This document shows, piece after piece, positions 50,409 through 57,062 of a stretch of DNA of 64,000 nt (positions are counted from its first letter, which is position 1; each line of letters starts with the position of its first letter). Location: assembly GCA_944372095.1 (NCBI GenBank), contig CALVYG010000002.1, positions 1 through 64,000 on the forward strand, given 5' to 3'. This DNA is from an uncultured Clostridia bacterium. GTDB lineage: Bacteria; Bacillota; Clostridia; Christensenellales; DTU072. Under the pieces are notes generated by a model. That model did no database searches. It was not told where the DNA came from and saw only the letters and a program-made list of their open reading frames with translations. Position numbers and translations under genes: made by a program.

Positions 50409-50435
50409 ATGGAAACGCGGGGTAAAAAGGTATGA
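50409..50435 (+). CDS. 8-codon leaderless leader ORF overlapping the release-factor-like start
   Basis: ATG at 50409 lies 7 nt after the -10 box, the same spacing as in three leaderless genes of this window. It reads METRGKKV and stops at UGA 50433-50435, which overlaps the ATG at 50432 (ATGA). No other good ribosome site for the next gene is seen (AAAAAGG is only 1 nt from the ATG), so termination-reinitiation could deliver ribosomes to it. The peptide itself is probably not functional. Confidence 0.5.
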
Positions 50436-51457
50436 ACGGTATTTTCGACGGTATAATCGCCGCTTCCGAAAAAACTCTCGAACATTTCTATTCGCTAGAA
50501 GAAATGCTCGAATATCCGGAAGTTCAGGCGGATAAGGCTTACTATTTATCCCTGCTTGCGCAGTACGATAAATTGAAATCCGTTCATATGAAACTATGCG
50601 AACTTAAAAAGACGCTTAAAGAAGAACAAGCCGTTTTAACGCTCGTCTCCCCTTCCGCAACCGAAGAAGAAAATAAACTTTACTCGGAAGAAGCGGCGGA
50701 GTTACGGCAAAAAGCCGAATCGGCGGGAAGAGAGCTTGCCTCTTTGCTCGGCGGAGAAAACGTAAAGGAATTTGCATTCTGCCGTATACGGTTTACGGGC
50801 GAAACCGCCGCAAAAACGGGACAGAAGTTTTATGTCTGCACGGAAAATTACCTTTCCTCACACGGCGTAACGGTAAAAGACGTAAAAAAGATTTTTGCGA
50901 AAAACAACGCGTTTATTCGTGAAATTTCGTTCAAGGCGGAAGGAGCAGACGCGCTTTTGATTTTAAAAACGCTTTGCGGCGCGCATAAAGTAATCGTCCC
51001 GAACGCCCCGTCGGAAGAAATTCTTTTTGCCGCAACGGCGGCGGAACGCCTTTTTTCCCCGCCTGCGGACAGCGAACTGAAAACGGATTTGTTCCATTCC
51101 GGCGGCGCGGGCGGTCAAAATATAAATAAAGTCGAAACCGCAGTAAGAATCACTCATATTCCCTCGGGAATCGTAGTCACCTGTCAGGACGAACGCTCGC
51201 AGCTTAAAAACAAACGCCGCGCTTTGGAAAATCTTACCGCCAAACTCGCGGAAAAACACTACGAAACCGAAAAAATAAGAATCGAAGCGGATTTCAAAAG
51301 ACAATTCTCGTCACACCGTTCGCCTCTTTCGTTCGATACGGCAAACGCAACAATGACCGATACGAGACTTACCTCGGGAAACGAAAAACTTCCGTTCCCT
51401 CCCGACGATAAAACTTTCGCTTCATACATAACGAATCTGATTGCTTTAAGGAAATAA
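50432..51457 (+). CDS. divergent class-I peptide chain release factor homologue
   Basis: A 341-residue RF1/RF2-type protein. Residues 1-110 are helical like RF domain 1. Domain 2/4 follows, and the catalytic loop [11 protein letters not shown] carries GGQ at 227-229, followed by [32 protein letters not shown], the conserved end of the RF-1 domain. The stop-codon reading region is altered. Where RF1 has GVHRVQRVPxTE then GRIHTS, this protein has [14 protein letters not shown] with a shortened loop; neither PxT, SPF nor the IHTS residues remain. It should hydrolyse peptidyl-tRNA on the ribosome but not read stop codons normally, so a rescue role is plausible. Length matches RFs. First main gene of the four-gene operon. 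Confidence 0.8.
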
Positions 51458-51460
51458 ACC

Positions 51461-53875
51461 GTGGAAAAATTTACGCAGCAAGTCACCGTAAATACCGAAA
51501 AAATTATACTGTCGGGCACCCGATGCGTTTATAAAACGGAAAATCTGATTTCGATGACGAGAAAAATTCCGTCAATCGACGATTTTATTTCACGCACCGC
51601 CGAAGCGTTTTTTTCGCTGAACCCGAAATCATCGGACCAAAACGGAAAATATTTCGCCGCGGAAACGGAAAACAAAAAATTTACGTTGTTTTTCCGCCTC
51701 GGCGGACATAACGACAGCCGTCTTACGCGCGACGATATTGTCTTTTATAAATTCATCTCGGCAAACGGCGAAGAAAGCGGCACGGACAGGAGTCTGTCAG
51801 AATATCTCTTGTCAAATCCCGTATTCGTGCTTACGCTTACCGAGCAATCGGACAAGCCCGACGAAAGGGATTTTTCAAAACTCTATCTCGTAAGCGGCGG
51901 AGACGGCGTTAATTTCCCTCTTTTAAGCCCCGTTCAACGCAAAATAGTTGAAACCGAAAACGCAAATATGCTCGTTCAGGGCGTTGCGGGCAGCGGAAAA
52001 ACCAACGTCTGCGTCGAAAAAATCGTCTACTGCGCTTGCCGCAGATACAGAGGTAAAATTTTATATACCACCTTTTCACGCGCTCTGATTACCGAAACGA
52101 AAAAACGCGTATCCCTTTTCCTTAAAAACATTGAGAATTTTACCGAAAAATTCAGAAAAGGCAACGTAGTTTTTCTCGACGATAACCATAAAAAAGCCAT
52201 TGAAAACAAATTGGGTATTGTATTCGATACGGACAGCGACGAAAAAATAGCCGAATCCCTTGAAAATATCGCTTATTTCCTTAAAAACAAAGTCGATTAT
52301 AAACTTATTGAAGACATATACGCCGATAAATTCGACAAAAAACGCACGGCAAACGAATCGTTTTTCATTAACGAATACGTCGGAGAAAGAAAAAATTACC
52401 GTCTGTCCGGCGCGCTTGACAAAATAAAAAATCTTTCGCTCGAAATTATTTATAAAGAAATTTACGGAATGATTTTCGGAAAATACGAGTTGGATTCTCC
52501 GTCCGATATGATGACGCGCGAAGAATACGCGGAAGCCAGAAAAGACAGTTTTTCGCGTAACGAATGCGACGTCATTTACTCCGTCGCGCTCGATTACGCC
52601 GCGTTTCTCGGGAAAAATTCAATTACCGACAACAATGCTATGAGCAGAGAACTTCTTTCTGCCGTTTCTTCGCCGCAGTATTCCGTGGGAATAATCGACG
52701 AAGCGCAGGATTTTACTCAGGTTAATCTCTGTCTTATCAAAAAACTCTGTATAAAACTTTTCTGCGTCGGAGACGCTTTACAAATGATAAATCCGTCCTA
52801 TTTCGGCTTCGGATATCTTAAACGGCTTATGTACGGGGACGTAACCGGTGTCACCGAACTTAAACACAACTACCGCAGCTCGGAAAAAATTGAAAAAATA
52901 GCGGAAAAACTCGGCGAATTGAACGTAAAAAGGTTCGGAACGCACAGTTTCGTTCTGAAAGGAGAAAGCGTGGACTCGGGGACGCCCACCGCCGCCGTAT
53001 TCGTTCACGACAAGGATTTCGCCTCTTCTCTTAAAGACAAGCGTTTTGAAAACGTCACCGTAATCGTCGCTTCGCAGAAGAAAAAAGAGTATCTGCGCTC
53101 CAAACTCGCAAAAACGGAAATTCTTACCGTAGCGGAAGCCAAAGGTCTCGAACGCAACACCGTTATTCTGGCGGACGTATTAAGCGACAACGCCGACAAA
53201 TGGCATTATCTCCAAAATATGTCTTTGAACAGAAAAACCGCTGACGAAAATTCCGTCTTCCGTTATTATTTCAATCTGTTTTACGTCGGAATTTCACGCG
53301 CAAAACAATATTTATTCGTATCGGAATCGAATTATCCTCCGATTTTCGAAAATTTGTTTTCCGAATGTTTTGAAAAAAAATCAAAGTCGGAAGCTGTCGG
53401 ATTTTTATCGGAAGTCGCTGGAAAAATAGAACTTGACGACGAAGAACTTATCGAAAGAATAAGAAAATTCTGCGAACTCGAACAGTACGAAAACGCGCTG
53501 TTTACCGCAGACAGACTGTCTGACGACAAACTCCGCGAGGAAGAACGAAACCGTATCTATATAAGCGAACGCTATCTGCGTTACGGAAACGACCGCGAAG
53601 CGGGTATAGAATATTGGAAACGCGGAATGGAACGGGACGCACGCGAAGCGTTTATCCGCTCGGGCGACGAAAAACTCCTTCCGTTAATGGACGCCTGCTC
53701 GGGCGGCGGAGGCGGAACGCTCGACGTCGATATCGTACGTTTCTTCCCTCTCGTCTCAGACAACGACATCGCGAAAAAACTTATCATTGACACAGTTAAA
53801 AACGATTATAACACAATTATGGGTATCCAAAAATCATTAAACGATTCCCTTAAACCCAAAAGGAGAAAACAATGA
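51461..53875 (+). CDS. UvrD/Rep-like SF1 helicase with extra N- and C-terminal regions
   Basis: An 804-residue superfamily 1A helicase. After a 150-residue N-terminal region without a known match come the Q-motif LLSPVQRKIV (about 154-163), Walker A QGVAGSGKTN (about 173-182), motif Ia TTFSRAL, Walker B IIDEAQDFT (about 409-417), motif III GDALQMI, motif IV ELKHNYRSSEKI (about 465), motif V TVAEAKGLERNTV and motif VI YVGISRAKQYLFV (about 608-620). Inserts between Ia and II are helical. The last 180 residues form a helical repeat-like tail. It should translocate on single-stranded nucleic acid with ATP. GTG start after AAGGAA, 3 nt past the release-factor-like stop; its stop overlaps the next gene by 4 nt. 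Confidence 0.85.
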   Translation: MEKFTQQVTVNTEKIILSGTRCVYKTENLISMTRKIPSIDDFISRTAEAFFSLNPKSSDQNGKYFAAETENKKFTLFFRLGGHNDSRLTRDDIVFYKFISANGEESGTDRSLSEYLLSNPVFVLTLTEQSDKPDERDFSKLYLVSGGDGVNFPLLSPVQRKIVETENANMLVQGVAGSGKTNVCVEKIVYCACRRYRGKILYTTFSRALITETKKRVSLFLKNIENFTEKFRKGNVVFLDDNHKKAIENKLGIVFDTDSDEKIAESLENIAYFLKNKVDYKLIEDIYADKFDKKRTANESFFINEYVGERKNYRLSGALDKIKNLSLEIIYKEIYGMIFGKYELDSPSDMMTREEYAEARKDSFSRNECDVIYSVALDYAAFLGKNSITDNNAMSRELLSAVSSPQYSVGIIDEAQDFTQVNLCLIKKLCIKLFCVGDALQMINPSYFGFGYLKRLMYGDVTGVTELKHNYRSSEKIEKIAEKLGELNVKRFGTHSFVLKGESVDSGTPTAAVFVHDKDFASSLKDKRFENVTVIVASQKKKEYLRSKLAKTEILTVAEAKGLERNTVILADVLSDNADKWHYLQNMSLNRKTADENSVFRYYFNLFYVGISRAKQYLFVSESNYPPIFENLFSECFEKKSKSEAVGFLSEVAGKIELDDEELIERIRKFCELEQYENALFTADRLSDDKLREEERNRIYISERYLRYGNDREAGIEYWKRGMERDAREAFIRSGDEKLLPLMDACSGGGGGTLDVDIVRFFPLVSDNDIAKKLIIDTVKNDYNTIMGIQKSLNDSLKPKRRKQ

Positions 53876-54591
53876 GCGACATCAGCGAACTTAAAGAACT
53901 TATCGACAGTTTCGTTGCCTACCGCAACGTTCTGGTTCCTCTGCAAGAAAGTCTCAAATCCATATCCGATACTTTTTTTTCCATACGCGACGACCTTGAC
54001 GGAATGAATAAAGCGTTTTCGGGAAACGCCGGCGCACAGCTCGAAAAAATTCATTCCACTCTTAACGCTCAGGCTGACAGCGGACGGGAACTCACAAGAA
54101 AAATCGAAGAGTTTTCCGTTTCCGGTGAAAAATATGCGCGCTCGGTCGATGAAATGCTGAAAAAATTCGACGAGGTCGGCAAACGCCTCGCAACGGTAAA
54201 CGAACTTGAAAAAAACGCGGAAAATATTCTTTCGCGTCTTGAAACGGTTATCGCGGAAAAACGCGCTTCATACAACCTTAAAGATTTACAGAAATCTCTC
54301 GATTCCTATAATATGAACGTTGAAAAAATAAGTGATTTCATAAATAAAGACGTCGCTTCTGTTTTACAGGAAAACGCCAAAAAAATCGAACAGATAAAAA
54401 AGGAAAACGAATTGCTTTCCGCCGCCGTCAACGAACAGAACAAAACGGTTGCGGAACTTACTCTGACTTTCCGCGAAACGTCTTCCCTGCTTAAAAAAGC
54501 CGCCGAAAGCGGCACCGTTAACGAAGAGTATCTCTTCGACGCCTTCGACAAATGGGCGGCTGACAGAAAAGTTAAAATAAAGAAAAAATAA
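53872..54591 (+). CDS. coiled-coil protein of the helicase operon
   Basis: A 239-residue protein that is almost all helix: SDISELKELIDSFVAYRNVL, LQESLKSISDTFFSIRDDLD, then several heptad stretches and a basic end (KWAADRKVKIKKK). No membrane segment, no signal, no enzyme motif. The start overlaps the helicase stop (ATGA) with AAGGAG upstream, so its amount is tied to the helicase. It may scaffold the helicase or link it to the membrane protein encoded 4 nt downstream; this is inference. Confidence 0.7.
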   Translation: MSDISELKELIDSFVAYRNVLVPLQESLKSISDTFFSIRDDLDGMNKAFSGNAGAQLEKIHSTLNAQADSGRELTRKIEEFSVSGEKYARSVDEMLKKFDEVGKRLATVNELEKNAENILSRLETVIAEKRASYNLKDLQKSLDSYNMNVEKISDFINKDVASVLQENAKKIEQIKKENELLSAAVNEQNKTVAELTLTFRETSSLLKKAAESGTVNEEYLFDAFDKWAADRKVKIKKK

Positions 54592-54594
54592 ATT

Positions 54595-56988
54595 ATGAAC
54601 GAACTACTTGCGAAAAAACTGTTCGACAGCATAAAAAAAGACGACCTCAAATCGTTTGACGAATGTATGGAGGAATTTCCGTGCGGAACCTTGCGTTTCG
54701 GACGTTTTCCCGTTTTATCGCTTTTATATTTGTTCTCCGCAAAGAAAATTACCGCCGCATACGAGGAAAAGTTTCTGAAAACCAACTCGTGGCAGGAACT
54801 TGACGAACCTCAGTTCGTTTCGGTTTTGTTCCGTAAAAAAGCGGGCAAATGCTTACGCTTATATCTCGACGAGGTTGTTTCTCCTCTCGAAATGCTTCTA
54901 ATACTTGACAAAACGTCAAAACTTAAACGCGTTTATCCTCTTTCCCGTCCGTCGTCTGCCGTAAAACAGCGTCTTAAAGAAATTTATTTCGTCAAATACG
55001 CTCTGAACGTAAGCTACGAGGGAGACAATATCGTTCTCGACAGACGTCCGTTGAAAAAATCGGAAAAACGCCGTATACTCATTGCCGCAGTAAGCTCGGT
55101 TCTTTGTATTGCGATTGCGGTCGGAACTCCGTTCGTTGTCAACGCTTTCGTGCCGTTTATCGGAATTTCCGACGACAATCCGTCAACGCCCGACAATCCC
55201 TCGGACGGCGGAAATACCGATAATCCCGATAATCCTTCCGACGATACGGAGAAAAAATATTATAACGTTTCGTCTTTCGAAGAAATAGATTTTGCTTCGC
55301 AAAACGTCTATACCCTCACCGCCGATATTACGGTTCCGAACGGTTTTTACGCCGAACAACTGAACTGTGAGCTTAACGGCGGCGGCAAAACCGTAACCGT
55401 TTCGGATAATAATCCTTTGTTCGGCGTAGTTACAGGTACGGTAAGAGATATTGTTTTCAGTTTTTCGGGCGATATTTCCGTTTCGGAAAATTTCGCGTTC
55501 GTTACGCTGTTAAACCTCGGAACGATTAAAAACGTCACTTTGAACGTAAGCGGAAAACTTACGGCAACCCTCGGAGAACAATCGACCGACGGCGGAATAA
55601 CCGTCGCCGGAATAGCCGTCGCGAACGGACCGTCAAGTTCAATATTTACCTACGGTCAAATCGATTCCTGTACGGTTAATTACAATGATTTCAATATTGT
55701 CGGAAACGTATACGCAAACGCAACTTACGGCGGAATAGCGGGCACGAATTACGCTTATCTCAGAAACTGCACCGTTTCGGGGAAAATCACTTCCGATACG
55801 CTCGACATTGCGGGAATATGCGTCACGAACAATTATTCTCTTTCGTCTTGCACCAACCGTGCGTCCCTTACCCAGAAATCCTCTTCCCCCGATTGGAACC
55901 CGATTGTTGCGGGAATCGTTACGACAAATTCGCGCTCTCTTACTTCCTGCGTAAATTACGGTGAAATATCCGCTCAATCGGAAAATACCGACACCGCGCA
56001 CGAAGAAAACACCGACCCGTCCGTTTCCGCAGCGGGAATTGCTTACCTTAACAGAGGCACGTTTCCCGCTCTGATAATAAGCCAAAGCATAAATTACGGT
56101 AAAATTTCCGCTTCATCGAAAGACAGAACTTCCTATGCGGCGGGGATATGTATATCGTCGTCAGGCGGAATACGCGAGTGTCTTAACGAGCGCGGCGCCG
56201 ACGTTGTGTCTGAAAACCGTTCGGATTTTTCTTCGTACGGAGGAGGTATTTCCGTATACGCTTACGGCTATGTGTACGGTTCGGTAAATAAAGGCGACGT
56301 TACCGTATCGTCTGCCGAAGGCAACGCTTATTCGGGCGGAATTACGGCTTATTCTTACGTGGAAATATCGCTGTCTCTTTCCTCGGGCAACGTATCTTCG
56401 TCGGGTGCTTCCGCTTACTCCGGCGGAATACTCGCCTATTCGTCCGTTACGTCGAGCGGGAATTTCGTTTACTTCGGTACGGTTACCCAATGTGTATTCA
56501 ACGGTACATTGTCTTCTGTTGCGGAATCGGAAAGTTTTGCCGGAGGCATTGTCGGGTTCGTTGAAGAAAAACTTTTTAACGAAGGCAAGGATTCCGAAAC
56601 CTATTTCGGAGGCGGAGTCACGGAATCGTATTTCACGGGCTCGTTTTCGGGTTCTTCTTCCGCAAGCCGTAACGGAGGCATTGCCGCCGCCTGCGGAAAA
56701 AACATTCACGACAGTAACGCCTATTCGGACAGCGGCGGCAACGTCCACAACAATTTCAAAGACAATTATTTTGTTCCCTCCCTCGACTCTCTGCTTGCCG
56801 TAGGTTTCGTCACGGCGGACGGAACGGCTTTCTCTTCCGGAAGCAACGTCGGCGCTTCTTCCGTTACGATTGACGTCATAAATAATTCGGAAACTTACAA
56901 AAAAATTCTTTCGGCTTTGTCGTCTTTAACCGGTAATACAGGAAATTCCTCCGAGGACACAAACGGCAACGGTGCGGTATCGGTTTGA
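54595..56988 (+). CDS. type-II membrane protein with extracellular beta-helix
   Basis: A 797-residue protein without a signal peptide. Residues 1-158 are a cytoplasmic helical domain (ELLAKKLFDSIKKDDLKSFD, RFGRFPVLSLLYLFSAKK). Residues about 160-188 (RRILIAAVSSVLCIAIAVGT) are the one membrane helix. A linker with repeated DNPSD units (about 193-222) and a long beta-helix of GLUG-like repeats (about 225-790) follow, e.g. NATYGGIAGTNYAYLRNCTV, YAAGICISSSGGIRECLN and AYSGGITAYSYVEISLSL. The basic side before the helix puts the N-terminus inside and the beta-helix outside. It could sense or bind outside and signal inward through the N-terminal domain. Last gene of the operon; followed by a terminator. 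Confidence 0.75.
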   Translation: MNELLAKKLFDSIKKDDLKSFDECMEEFPCGTLRFGRFPVLSLLYLFSAKKITAAYEEKFLKTNSWQELDEPQFVSVLFRKKAGKCLRLYLDEVVSPLEMLLILDKTSKLKRVYPLSRPSSAVKQRLKEIYFVKYALNVSYEGDNIVLDRRPLKKSEKRRILIAAVSSVLCIAIAVGTPFVVNAFVPFIGISDDNPSTPDNPSDGGNTDNPDNPSDDTEKKYYNVSSFEEIDFASQNVYTLTADITVPNGFYAEQLNCELNGGGKTVTVSDNNPLFGVVTGTVRDIVFSFSGDISVSENFAFVTLLNLGTIKNVTLNVSGKLTATLGEQSTDGGITVAGIAVANGPSSSIFTYGQIDSCTVNYNDFNIVGNVYANATYGGIAGTNYAYLRNCTVSGKITSDTLDIAGICVTNNYSLSSCTNRASLTQKSSSPDWNPIVAGIVTTNSRSLTSCVNYGEISAQSENTDTAHEENTDPSVSAAGIAYLNRGTFPALIISQSINYGKISASSKDRTSYAAGICISSSGGIRECLNERGADVVSENRSDFSSYGGGISVYAYGYVYGSVNKGDVTVSSAEGNAYSGGITAYSYVEISLSLSSGNVSSSGASAYSGGILAYSSVTSSGNFVYFGTVTQCVFNGTLSSVAESESFAGGIVGFVEEKLFNEGKDSETYFGGGVTESYFTGSFSGSSSASRNGGIAAACGKNIHDSNAYSDSGGNVHNNFKDNYFVPSLDSLLAVGFVTADGTAFSSGSNVGASSVTIDVINNSETYKKILSALSSLTGNTGNSSEDTNGNGAVSV

Positions 56989-57007
56989 TTCCGTTTCAAA
57001 AAAACAG

Positions 57008-57033
57008 ACAGCCGCGGAATTTCCCGCGGCTGT
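57008..57033. terminator. bidirectional terminator between convergent operons
   Basis: 10-bp stem ACAGCCGCGG / CCGCGGCTGT, 6-nt loop; T-rich on the plus side, seven T on the minus side. Confidence 0.85.
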
Positions 57034-57062
57034 TATTTTATGTTTTACTTTTCATCCGAACT

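Follow-up and report, generated by a model that had tools for sequence, protein, structure and literature searches.

The open reading frame (ORF) at positions 50432..51457 on the forward (+) strand of the window, the whole 64,000-nucleotide stretch of DNA that was analysed, encodes a codon-blind class-I release factor (RF) paralogue of 341 aa, which has domains 1-4 and keeps the GGQ motif. The gene belongs to a conserved cassette of four genes, a point absent from the sequence-only reading of this DNA, and is followed by genes for a UvrD/Rep-type SF1 helicase (H), a coiled-coil protein (C) and a single-pass membrane protein (M). The RF family and its association with the cassette are well supported, and the mechanism is what we infer.

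Identity of the release factor paralogue

The ORF matched Pfam PCRF at residues 17-188 (36.8 bits, cut-off 24) and Pfam RF-1 (PF00472) with 96.6 bits (cut-off 35). None of the NCBIfam RF models scored claimed it. It reached 126.5 bits with prfA (NF001859), which is under one third of the 400 needed, 116.7 of 370 bits with prfB, 72.9 of 166.65 with prfH (TIGR03072), and 43.3 of 100 with ArfB. In the AF2 model (pLDDT 87.8, input alignment of 20 sequences), domain 1 was predicted as helical residues 2-106 and domain 2 was partly retained. The best RF1 match of this model was 7m5d_A (Z 19.0, rmsd 9.1, 330 aligned). BrfA-bound RF2, 6szs_z, gave Z 18.1 (rmsd 5.6, 334 aligned), and the two PrfH structures 9mor_A and 7sa4_8 both gave Z 12.4, with 194 and 189 aligned residues, respectively. 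A full domain 1 had been claimed from the sequence, as had a distinction from ArfB/ICT1-type rescue factors, and both claims hold given the PCRF match, the helical residues, the length with domains 1-2, and the low ArfB score. With its GGQ RF-1 domain within an RF fold, the window RF belongs to the class-I RF superfamily (bRF-PH), and it does not show the features tested as defining RF1, RF2, PrfH, and ArfB. No basic tail of its own was seen on it.

The host genome also encodes canonical RF1 (L001), marked by PETESQGRVHTS, and canonical RF2 (L002), marked by SPFDANKRRHTS. The window RF was therefore rejected as a stand-in for an absent RF1 or RF2, and the lack of another RF1, which the sequence-only reading had named as evidence against itself, does not apply. 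A scan of genome contigs for the window RF returned one locus, which was canonical RF1.

Relatives were looked for by profile searches of 40 family genomes and 396 order genomes, of which 40 of the 396 were followed up, plus fetched stretches. After canonical RF1 and RF2 had been removed by motif, 63 further codon-blind RF ORFs were found. A tree of RF paralogues with 71 rows, drawn without ArfB and without 24 third RFs that were near-copies or fragments, separated 29 canonical RF1 and RF2 sequences from all 41 codon-blind members, with support of 100/100. E. coli PrfH, whose branch is very long, grouped with the latter, and its placement is unsure. The new family may therefore be remotely related to PrfH.

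Much shortened codon-blind RFs of 208-284 aa, with domains 1 and 2 reduced, were observed at L135:6012-6638 (G378), L116, L121 and L122 (f17 g50). In G067, an RF2-type protein (L119:7024-8127) and a codon-blind RF (L120:5577-6410) share a Gly/Ser/Lys-rich insertion at the junction of domain 2 and the GGQ domain. An RF2-type ORF of 388 aa with SPF (L115:2115-3281, G214) could be either contamination or a second copy of RF2.

Loss of codon-reading elements and retention of GGQ

The shortened tip of domain 2, at the former place of PxT/SPF and HTS, lies at 50978..51040 (+) and starts at residue 183, and the GGQ catalytic loop (residues 223-233) lies at 51098..51130 (+). Both sequences quoted by the sequence-only reading are present in the translation, from nt 50978 and at nt 51098-51130. 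For comparison with canonical factors, we used an alignment of 63 family sequences, 20 RF1s (E. coli RF1 and 19 RF1s from other genomes), 9 RF2s, and E. coli PrfH. The 63 family rows were the window RF, 61 of the 63 further ORFs, and the 208-aa copy from G378, which was retained while two third RFs of at most 240 aa were left out.

GGQ was present in all 63 aligned family members. The PxT proline (P188) was identical in 2 of 63, and the PxT threonine (T190) in 1 of 63, compared to 20 of 20 RF1s for each, while the HTS histidine (H197) was identical in none of the family and in 19 of 20 RF1s. SPF before GGQ was found in 0 of the 63 aligned members. The helix-5 tip (GxGGxEA in RF1/RF2), which we take to be the reader of the first stop base, is eroded as well, with G120 and E123 each identical in 3 of 63 members and in 20 of 20 RF1s. 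PxT-like tripeptides occurred elsewhere in the tip region in 11 of 63 members, none of them at the reading position. The string VPNA in the window RF may be a relic of VPxT with P kept and T lost, and most of its relatives do not have even that P. The span from GxH to GGQ was 42 residues in the window RF and 29-63 residues across the new family, compared to 50-51 in RF1. Thus, the alignment recovered neither PxT nor SPF, and the claim of an RF homologue that lost its stop-codon readers and kept GGQ was confirmed. As each of the 63 aligned members shows the loss and each keeps GGQ, chance is not the cause, and an alignment artefact was rejected on the basis of the same 63 sequences.

Conservation, calculated from the 52 alignment rows of at least 300 aa, differed strongly along the protein. 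Domain 3 had a mean modal frequency of 0.79, compared to 0.39 for the tip, 0.37-0.44 for domains 1, 2, and the C-terminal parts, and 0.59 for the 13 columns immediately before GGQ.

The cassette, its proteins and its spread

An all-against-all comparison of neighbours at the 54 indexable loci showed three families after the RF in the same order and on the same strand, at 44, 42, and 41 of the 54 loci, and the next commonest neighbour family occurred at only 7. By profiles, H directly followed the RF on the same strand at 52 of 63 loci, with an exact 4-nt overlap in 18 and a spacing within 20 nt in 33. C was present at 51 and M at 49 of these 52 loci, the missing cases being at contig ends. The other 11 of the 63 loci included L052, where the cassette is convergent beside the RF, and L126 and L130, where the RFs are at contig ends. 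Eight of the 63 loci had no H inside the fetched stretch. Where H was elsewhere in the genome, C and M were still downstream of it unless the contig ended.

In the window, H (804 aa, GTG start; 51461..53875, +) begins 3 nt past the RF stop codon. It matched Pfam UvrD-helicase (7.7e-15) and shows the features of an SF1 protein, with a UvrD/PcrA/Rep fold and intact Walker motifs. Walker A (G174-T181; 51980..52003, +) has 7 of 8 columns invariant among 29 aligned H sequences, and Walker B (DEAQD, 413-417; 52697..52711, +) has D413, E414, Q416, and D417 invariant in the same set. The fold of H matched Rep 1uaa_B (Z 26.1, rmsd 3.8, 397 aligned), HelD 8q3i_H (Z 22.4, rmsd 4.0, 329 aligned) and 6wvk_H (Z 21.3, rmsd 4.3, 383 aligned), and SLFN11 (Z 18.3, rmsd 4.1, 280 aligned), and these matches barely test its extra N-terminal part (about 1-150) and helical C-terminal part (about 645-804). 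H scored below every NCBIfam cut-off, with 42.6 of 911 bits for pcrA, 32.2 of 1144 for uvrD, 38.7 of 951 for rep, and 31.5 of 419 for HelD.

C (239 aa; 53872..54591, +) overlaps H by 4 nt and is a helical coiled coil ending in a basic C-terminal tail, DKWAADRKVKIKKK (54547..54588, +). Among 42 C sequences, the last tenth was the most conserved part (modal frequency 0.75), and the net charge averaged +4.7 in the last 12 residues compared to -0.5 per 12 residues elsewhere. M (797 aa; 54595..56988, +) follows after a 3-nt gap and is predicted to have a conserved N-terminal domain (about 1-160), a transmembrane (TM) segment at 161-179, and a Gly-rich repeat ectodomain. One TM segment was predicted in 40 of 43 sequences of the M family, with a median start at 163. 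The charge flanking it (+3.6 before, -0.8 after) suggests that the N-terminal domain is probably in the cytosol and the Gly-rich repeats outside. Pfam and PADLOC searches of M and C gave nothing specific. PADLOC on the cassette as a whole gave partial GajB-like and coiled-coil matches and none for M, which does not correspond to a single anti-phage system. A weak match to the M profile (56 bits) came from a 902-aa ORF at L098, which lies about 8 kb upstream of the cassette, and M-like surface proteins may exist beyond the cassette.

Between M and a convergent transporter-like gene there is a candidate terminator at 57007..57034, a hairpin of 11 pairs with T tracts on each strand, found by consensus match only. 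It is possibly a bidirectional terminator that ends the cassette transcript. The scan found 19 terminator-like sites where 14.0 were expected by shuffling, and the 10 promoters found against 7.5 expected were not clearly beyond chance.

Of the 396 genomes of the order, 58 had H, which was surveyed outside G001, G016, and G062. The RF was present in 57 of these 58, 56 by the first surveys and one more in G378, where a 208-aa copy directly upstream of H was the third match with a wider profile. The remaining genome, G172, is fragmented and had H, C, and M with no RF at E 1e-10. Among the 338 genomes of the order without H, the RF was confirmed in none. G140, which lacks H, gave a weak third RF match, and third matches in G128, G214, and G310 were rejected as members of the new family after inspection, being canonical RF1/RF2 pieces or copies. 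The co-occurrence of RF and H gave a Fisher p of 1.4e-68, which has no correction for kinship, the 58 genomes representing 16 of 138 genera. The two genes were on different contigs in G007, G017, G028, G081, G099, and G150, although the RF of G017 is 0.3 kb from a contig end, so that the contig split there may not mean distance from H. Since these six genomes keep both genes on different contigs, simple hitch-hiking explains the link between RF and H poorly.

Sequence identities departed from taxonomy. The window RF was 46-49% identical to the RFs of L089 and L096, which belong to other families, compared to 25-31% within its own genus, and the window H showed the same pattern (66-67% versus 47-53%). 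RF1 behaved as expected, with 81-83% within the genus and 63% to the family of L089. In the H tree, built by a quick method with SH-aLRT support only, the starred branches can only be explained by 3 or more changes of the family label for f1 and 4 or more for f3. Across 42 loci the distances of RF, H, and C were correlated (Spearman 0.69-0.74); for RF and H the value was 0.69, and 0 of 500 permutations were as high. The cassette thus moves horizontally. In g1, the genus of the window (L036:7346-8290, L052), two or more distant lineages of the RF and H are represented and some species do not have them, so the cassette seems to turn over quickly.

In a draw from the class, H was found in 1 of 392 genomes, namely the host genome; this draw includes genomes of the host order, so absence beyond the order is only sampled, and the searches for the RF itself were mainly within that order. 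H had no match in phage records, only distant UvrD-like matches in plasmids, and two weak and distant matches in viral contigs. A phage or plasmid origin was rejected on the phage and plasmid results.

Values of dN/dS from 12 close pairs were 0.06-0.24 for the RF, 0.03-0.17 for H, and 0.01-0.09 for C, and those of the 11 pairs having M were 0.09-0.37 for M, which had the highest dN of the cassette proteins in 10 of 11 pairs. Purifying selection acts on all four cassette genes, and a pseudogene status of the RF was rejected by its dN/dS.

Proposed role and comparison with known systems

Of the two roles that the sequence-only reading had suggested, ribosome rescue is the one we infer to be most likely. 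Because GGQ and its neighbourhood are kept while the decoding elements are lost, codon-independent peptide release is indicated, and the RF would carry it out in a helicase-coupled, probably membrane-tethered rescue. In part of PMC6881298, rescue by BrfA and RF2 in B. subtilis is described as requiring GGQ and not SPF, so that the loss of decoding motifs is compatible with rescue. Chances appear about even that the four genes form a ribosome-rescue system that has spread horizontally, with the RF as its subunit for peptide release.

In such a system, the RF would enter the A site with no need to read a codon and would hydrolyse peptidyl-tRNA on stalled ribosomes, with specificity supplied by its partners. 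Since the RF has no tail, unlike ArfB, the choice of substrate probably comes from those partners. UvrD-type helicases have 3'-to-5' polarity, and H would pull or clear mRNA from the entry side, giving an empty decoding centre. C would link the parts, and its basic tail could perhaps probe the empty mRNA channel like the tails of ArfB or BrfA; Burroughs and Aravind proposed that charged helical proteins near PrfH might serve as such tails (PMC6514570). M would anchor the assembly in the membrane, possibly where ribosomes are coupled to secretion, or act as a sensor. That H acts on RNA and that the four proteins form one complex are presumed in this proposal. With tmRNA (130 bits), SmpB, and a protein of the NFACT_N (RqcH-type) kind all present in the host genome, there is no evident gap among its rescue pathways. 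The proposed system would be an addition to these, and compensation for an absent tmRNA was rejected. SmpB was found in 48 of 58 relatives; the others were 5 of the 21 that have the RF and 5 of the 37 that do not. SmpB was not found in the cassette-bearing G012, G022, and G031, which are nearly complete (93-99%), nor in a few cassette-free genomes.

More tentatively, the cassette might be a bacterial analogue of Pelota-SKI, ATP-driven and membrane-tethered, in which the helicase strips mRNA, the codon-blind RF hydrolyses, and the tail of C senses in trans. We regard this specific form as possible and rather doubtful.

Somewhat unlikely is a conflict or immunity system, in which M would sense an envelope attack, H would recognise nucleic acid that is damaged or foreign, and the codon-blind RF would free ribosomes with a damaged decoding centre or stuck on cut mRNA. 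The patchy spread with transfer between families, the fast divergence of M, and the weak matches of H to GajB-type helicase profiles agree with it, and a precedent exists in PrfH-RtcB2, which acts after colicin E3 according to part of PMC9223846. However, RtcB had no match in the host genome (G000) and was found in 1 of 21 RF-positive genomes (G049) among the 58 relatives, no RNA-repair enzyme or toxin recurs near the cassette, H lacks phage matches and has only the distant plasmid ones, and whole genera carry the cassette. The identification of the RF locus as PrfH-RtcB was rejected because of the missing RtcB, the presence of domain 1, and the neighbours H, C, and M.

Against the rescue reading, H could also act on DNA or RNA polymerase, as the folds that it matches best belong to DNA helicases (Rep, UvrD) and HelD. 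Clearance of coupled transcription and translation, in which a HelD-like H would clear R-loops or a stalled RNA polymerase and leave release of the coupled ribosome to the RF, draws on the HelD matches being nearly as good as those to Rep/UvrD. We consider it unlikely, as H is far under the HelD cut-off and a membrane anchor would be unexpected. It is improbable, too, that the RF is an A-site plug or regulator that binds the ribosome without hydrolysing peptidyl-tRNA; the fast divergence of domains 1 and 2 would suit such a role, but GGQ and the adjoining residues are nearly invariant.

The other role of the sequence-only reading, at a special stop, is disfavoured. An RF whose new tip reads a non-standard signal (a sense codon or a modified stop) would account for the partly retained domain 2, yet the tip is short, variable in length, and poorly conserved, unlike a new codon reader, and the genome has both RF1 and RF2, which makes this very improbable. 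That the RF adjoins the cassette without a functional link fits its being less conserved than H and C, but is hardly credible given the near-strict co-occurrence even when the genes are unlinked.

Compared to RF1 (PrfA) and RF2 (PrfB), the new RF shares fold, domain 1, GGQ domain, and ancestry, whereas it lacks PxT/SPF, HTS, and the helix-5 tip and stands on a 100/100 branch apart. ArfB/ICT1 uses a GGQ domain independently of codons, as the new RF presumably does, but ArfB consists only of an RF-1 domain and a basic tail, and the new RF is full length and tailless. PrfH (RF-H) with RtcB2 is likewise a third RF paralogue with altered codon readers, in an operon with a nucleic-acid enzyme and of sporadic spread. 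PrfH, however, has no domain 1 and is paired with the RNA ligase RtcB, which was not found in the host genome, whereas the partners of the new RF are H, C, and M. ArfA-RF2 and BrfA-RF2 resemble the proposed rescue system in using a full-length RF in a partner-dependent, codon-independent way, and the tail of C may act like that of BrfA; there a normal RF2 is borrowed, and here a dedicated paralogue comes with an ATPase. HelD, UvrD/Rep, and Schlafen helicases share the SF1 core with H, which differs from them by its own N- and C-terminal parts and its sub-cut-off NCBIfam scores.

Pelota is an eRF1 paralogue lacking its decoding domain. Eukaryotic Pelota/Dom34-SKI thus has a formal resemblance to the cassette, as an RF paralogue without its decoding part in functional pairing with a helicase. 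The systems are not homologous, the new RF keeps GGQ, and the cassette has a membrane anchor. SKI238 is able to extract mRNA from ribosomes, as stated in part of PMC11540850, and Dom34 has no catalytic glutamine, as stated in part of PMC6514570.

Section 2.4 of the survey in PMC6514570 names only RF1, RF2, ArfB, and PrfH as bacterial release-factor families and gives ArfB as absent from firmicutes. We found no report of a similar RF-helicase operon in the open-licence literature, represented mostly by titles and abstract starts. A full-length, codon-blind, GGQ-positive RF that occurs almost one-to-one with H, C, and M is a further family. The novel part is the cassette, ribosome rescue or release itself being of a known kind. 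No bacterial rescue route known to us couples a dedicated RF to an ATP-driven, membrane-located motor. If the RF does rescue ribosomes, it would be the first such bacterial route, and the cassette would make testable the activation of an RF without any decoding contacts as well as the roles of three uncharacterised partner families.
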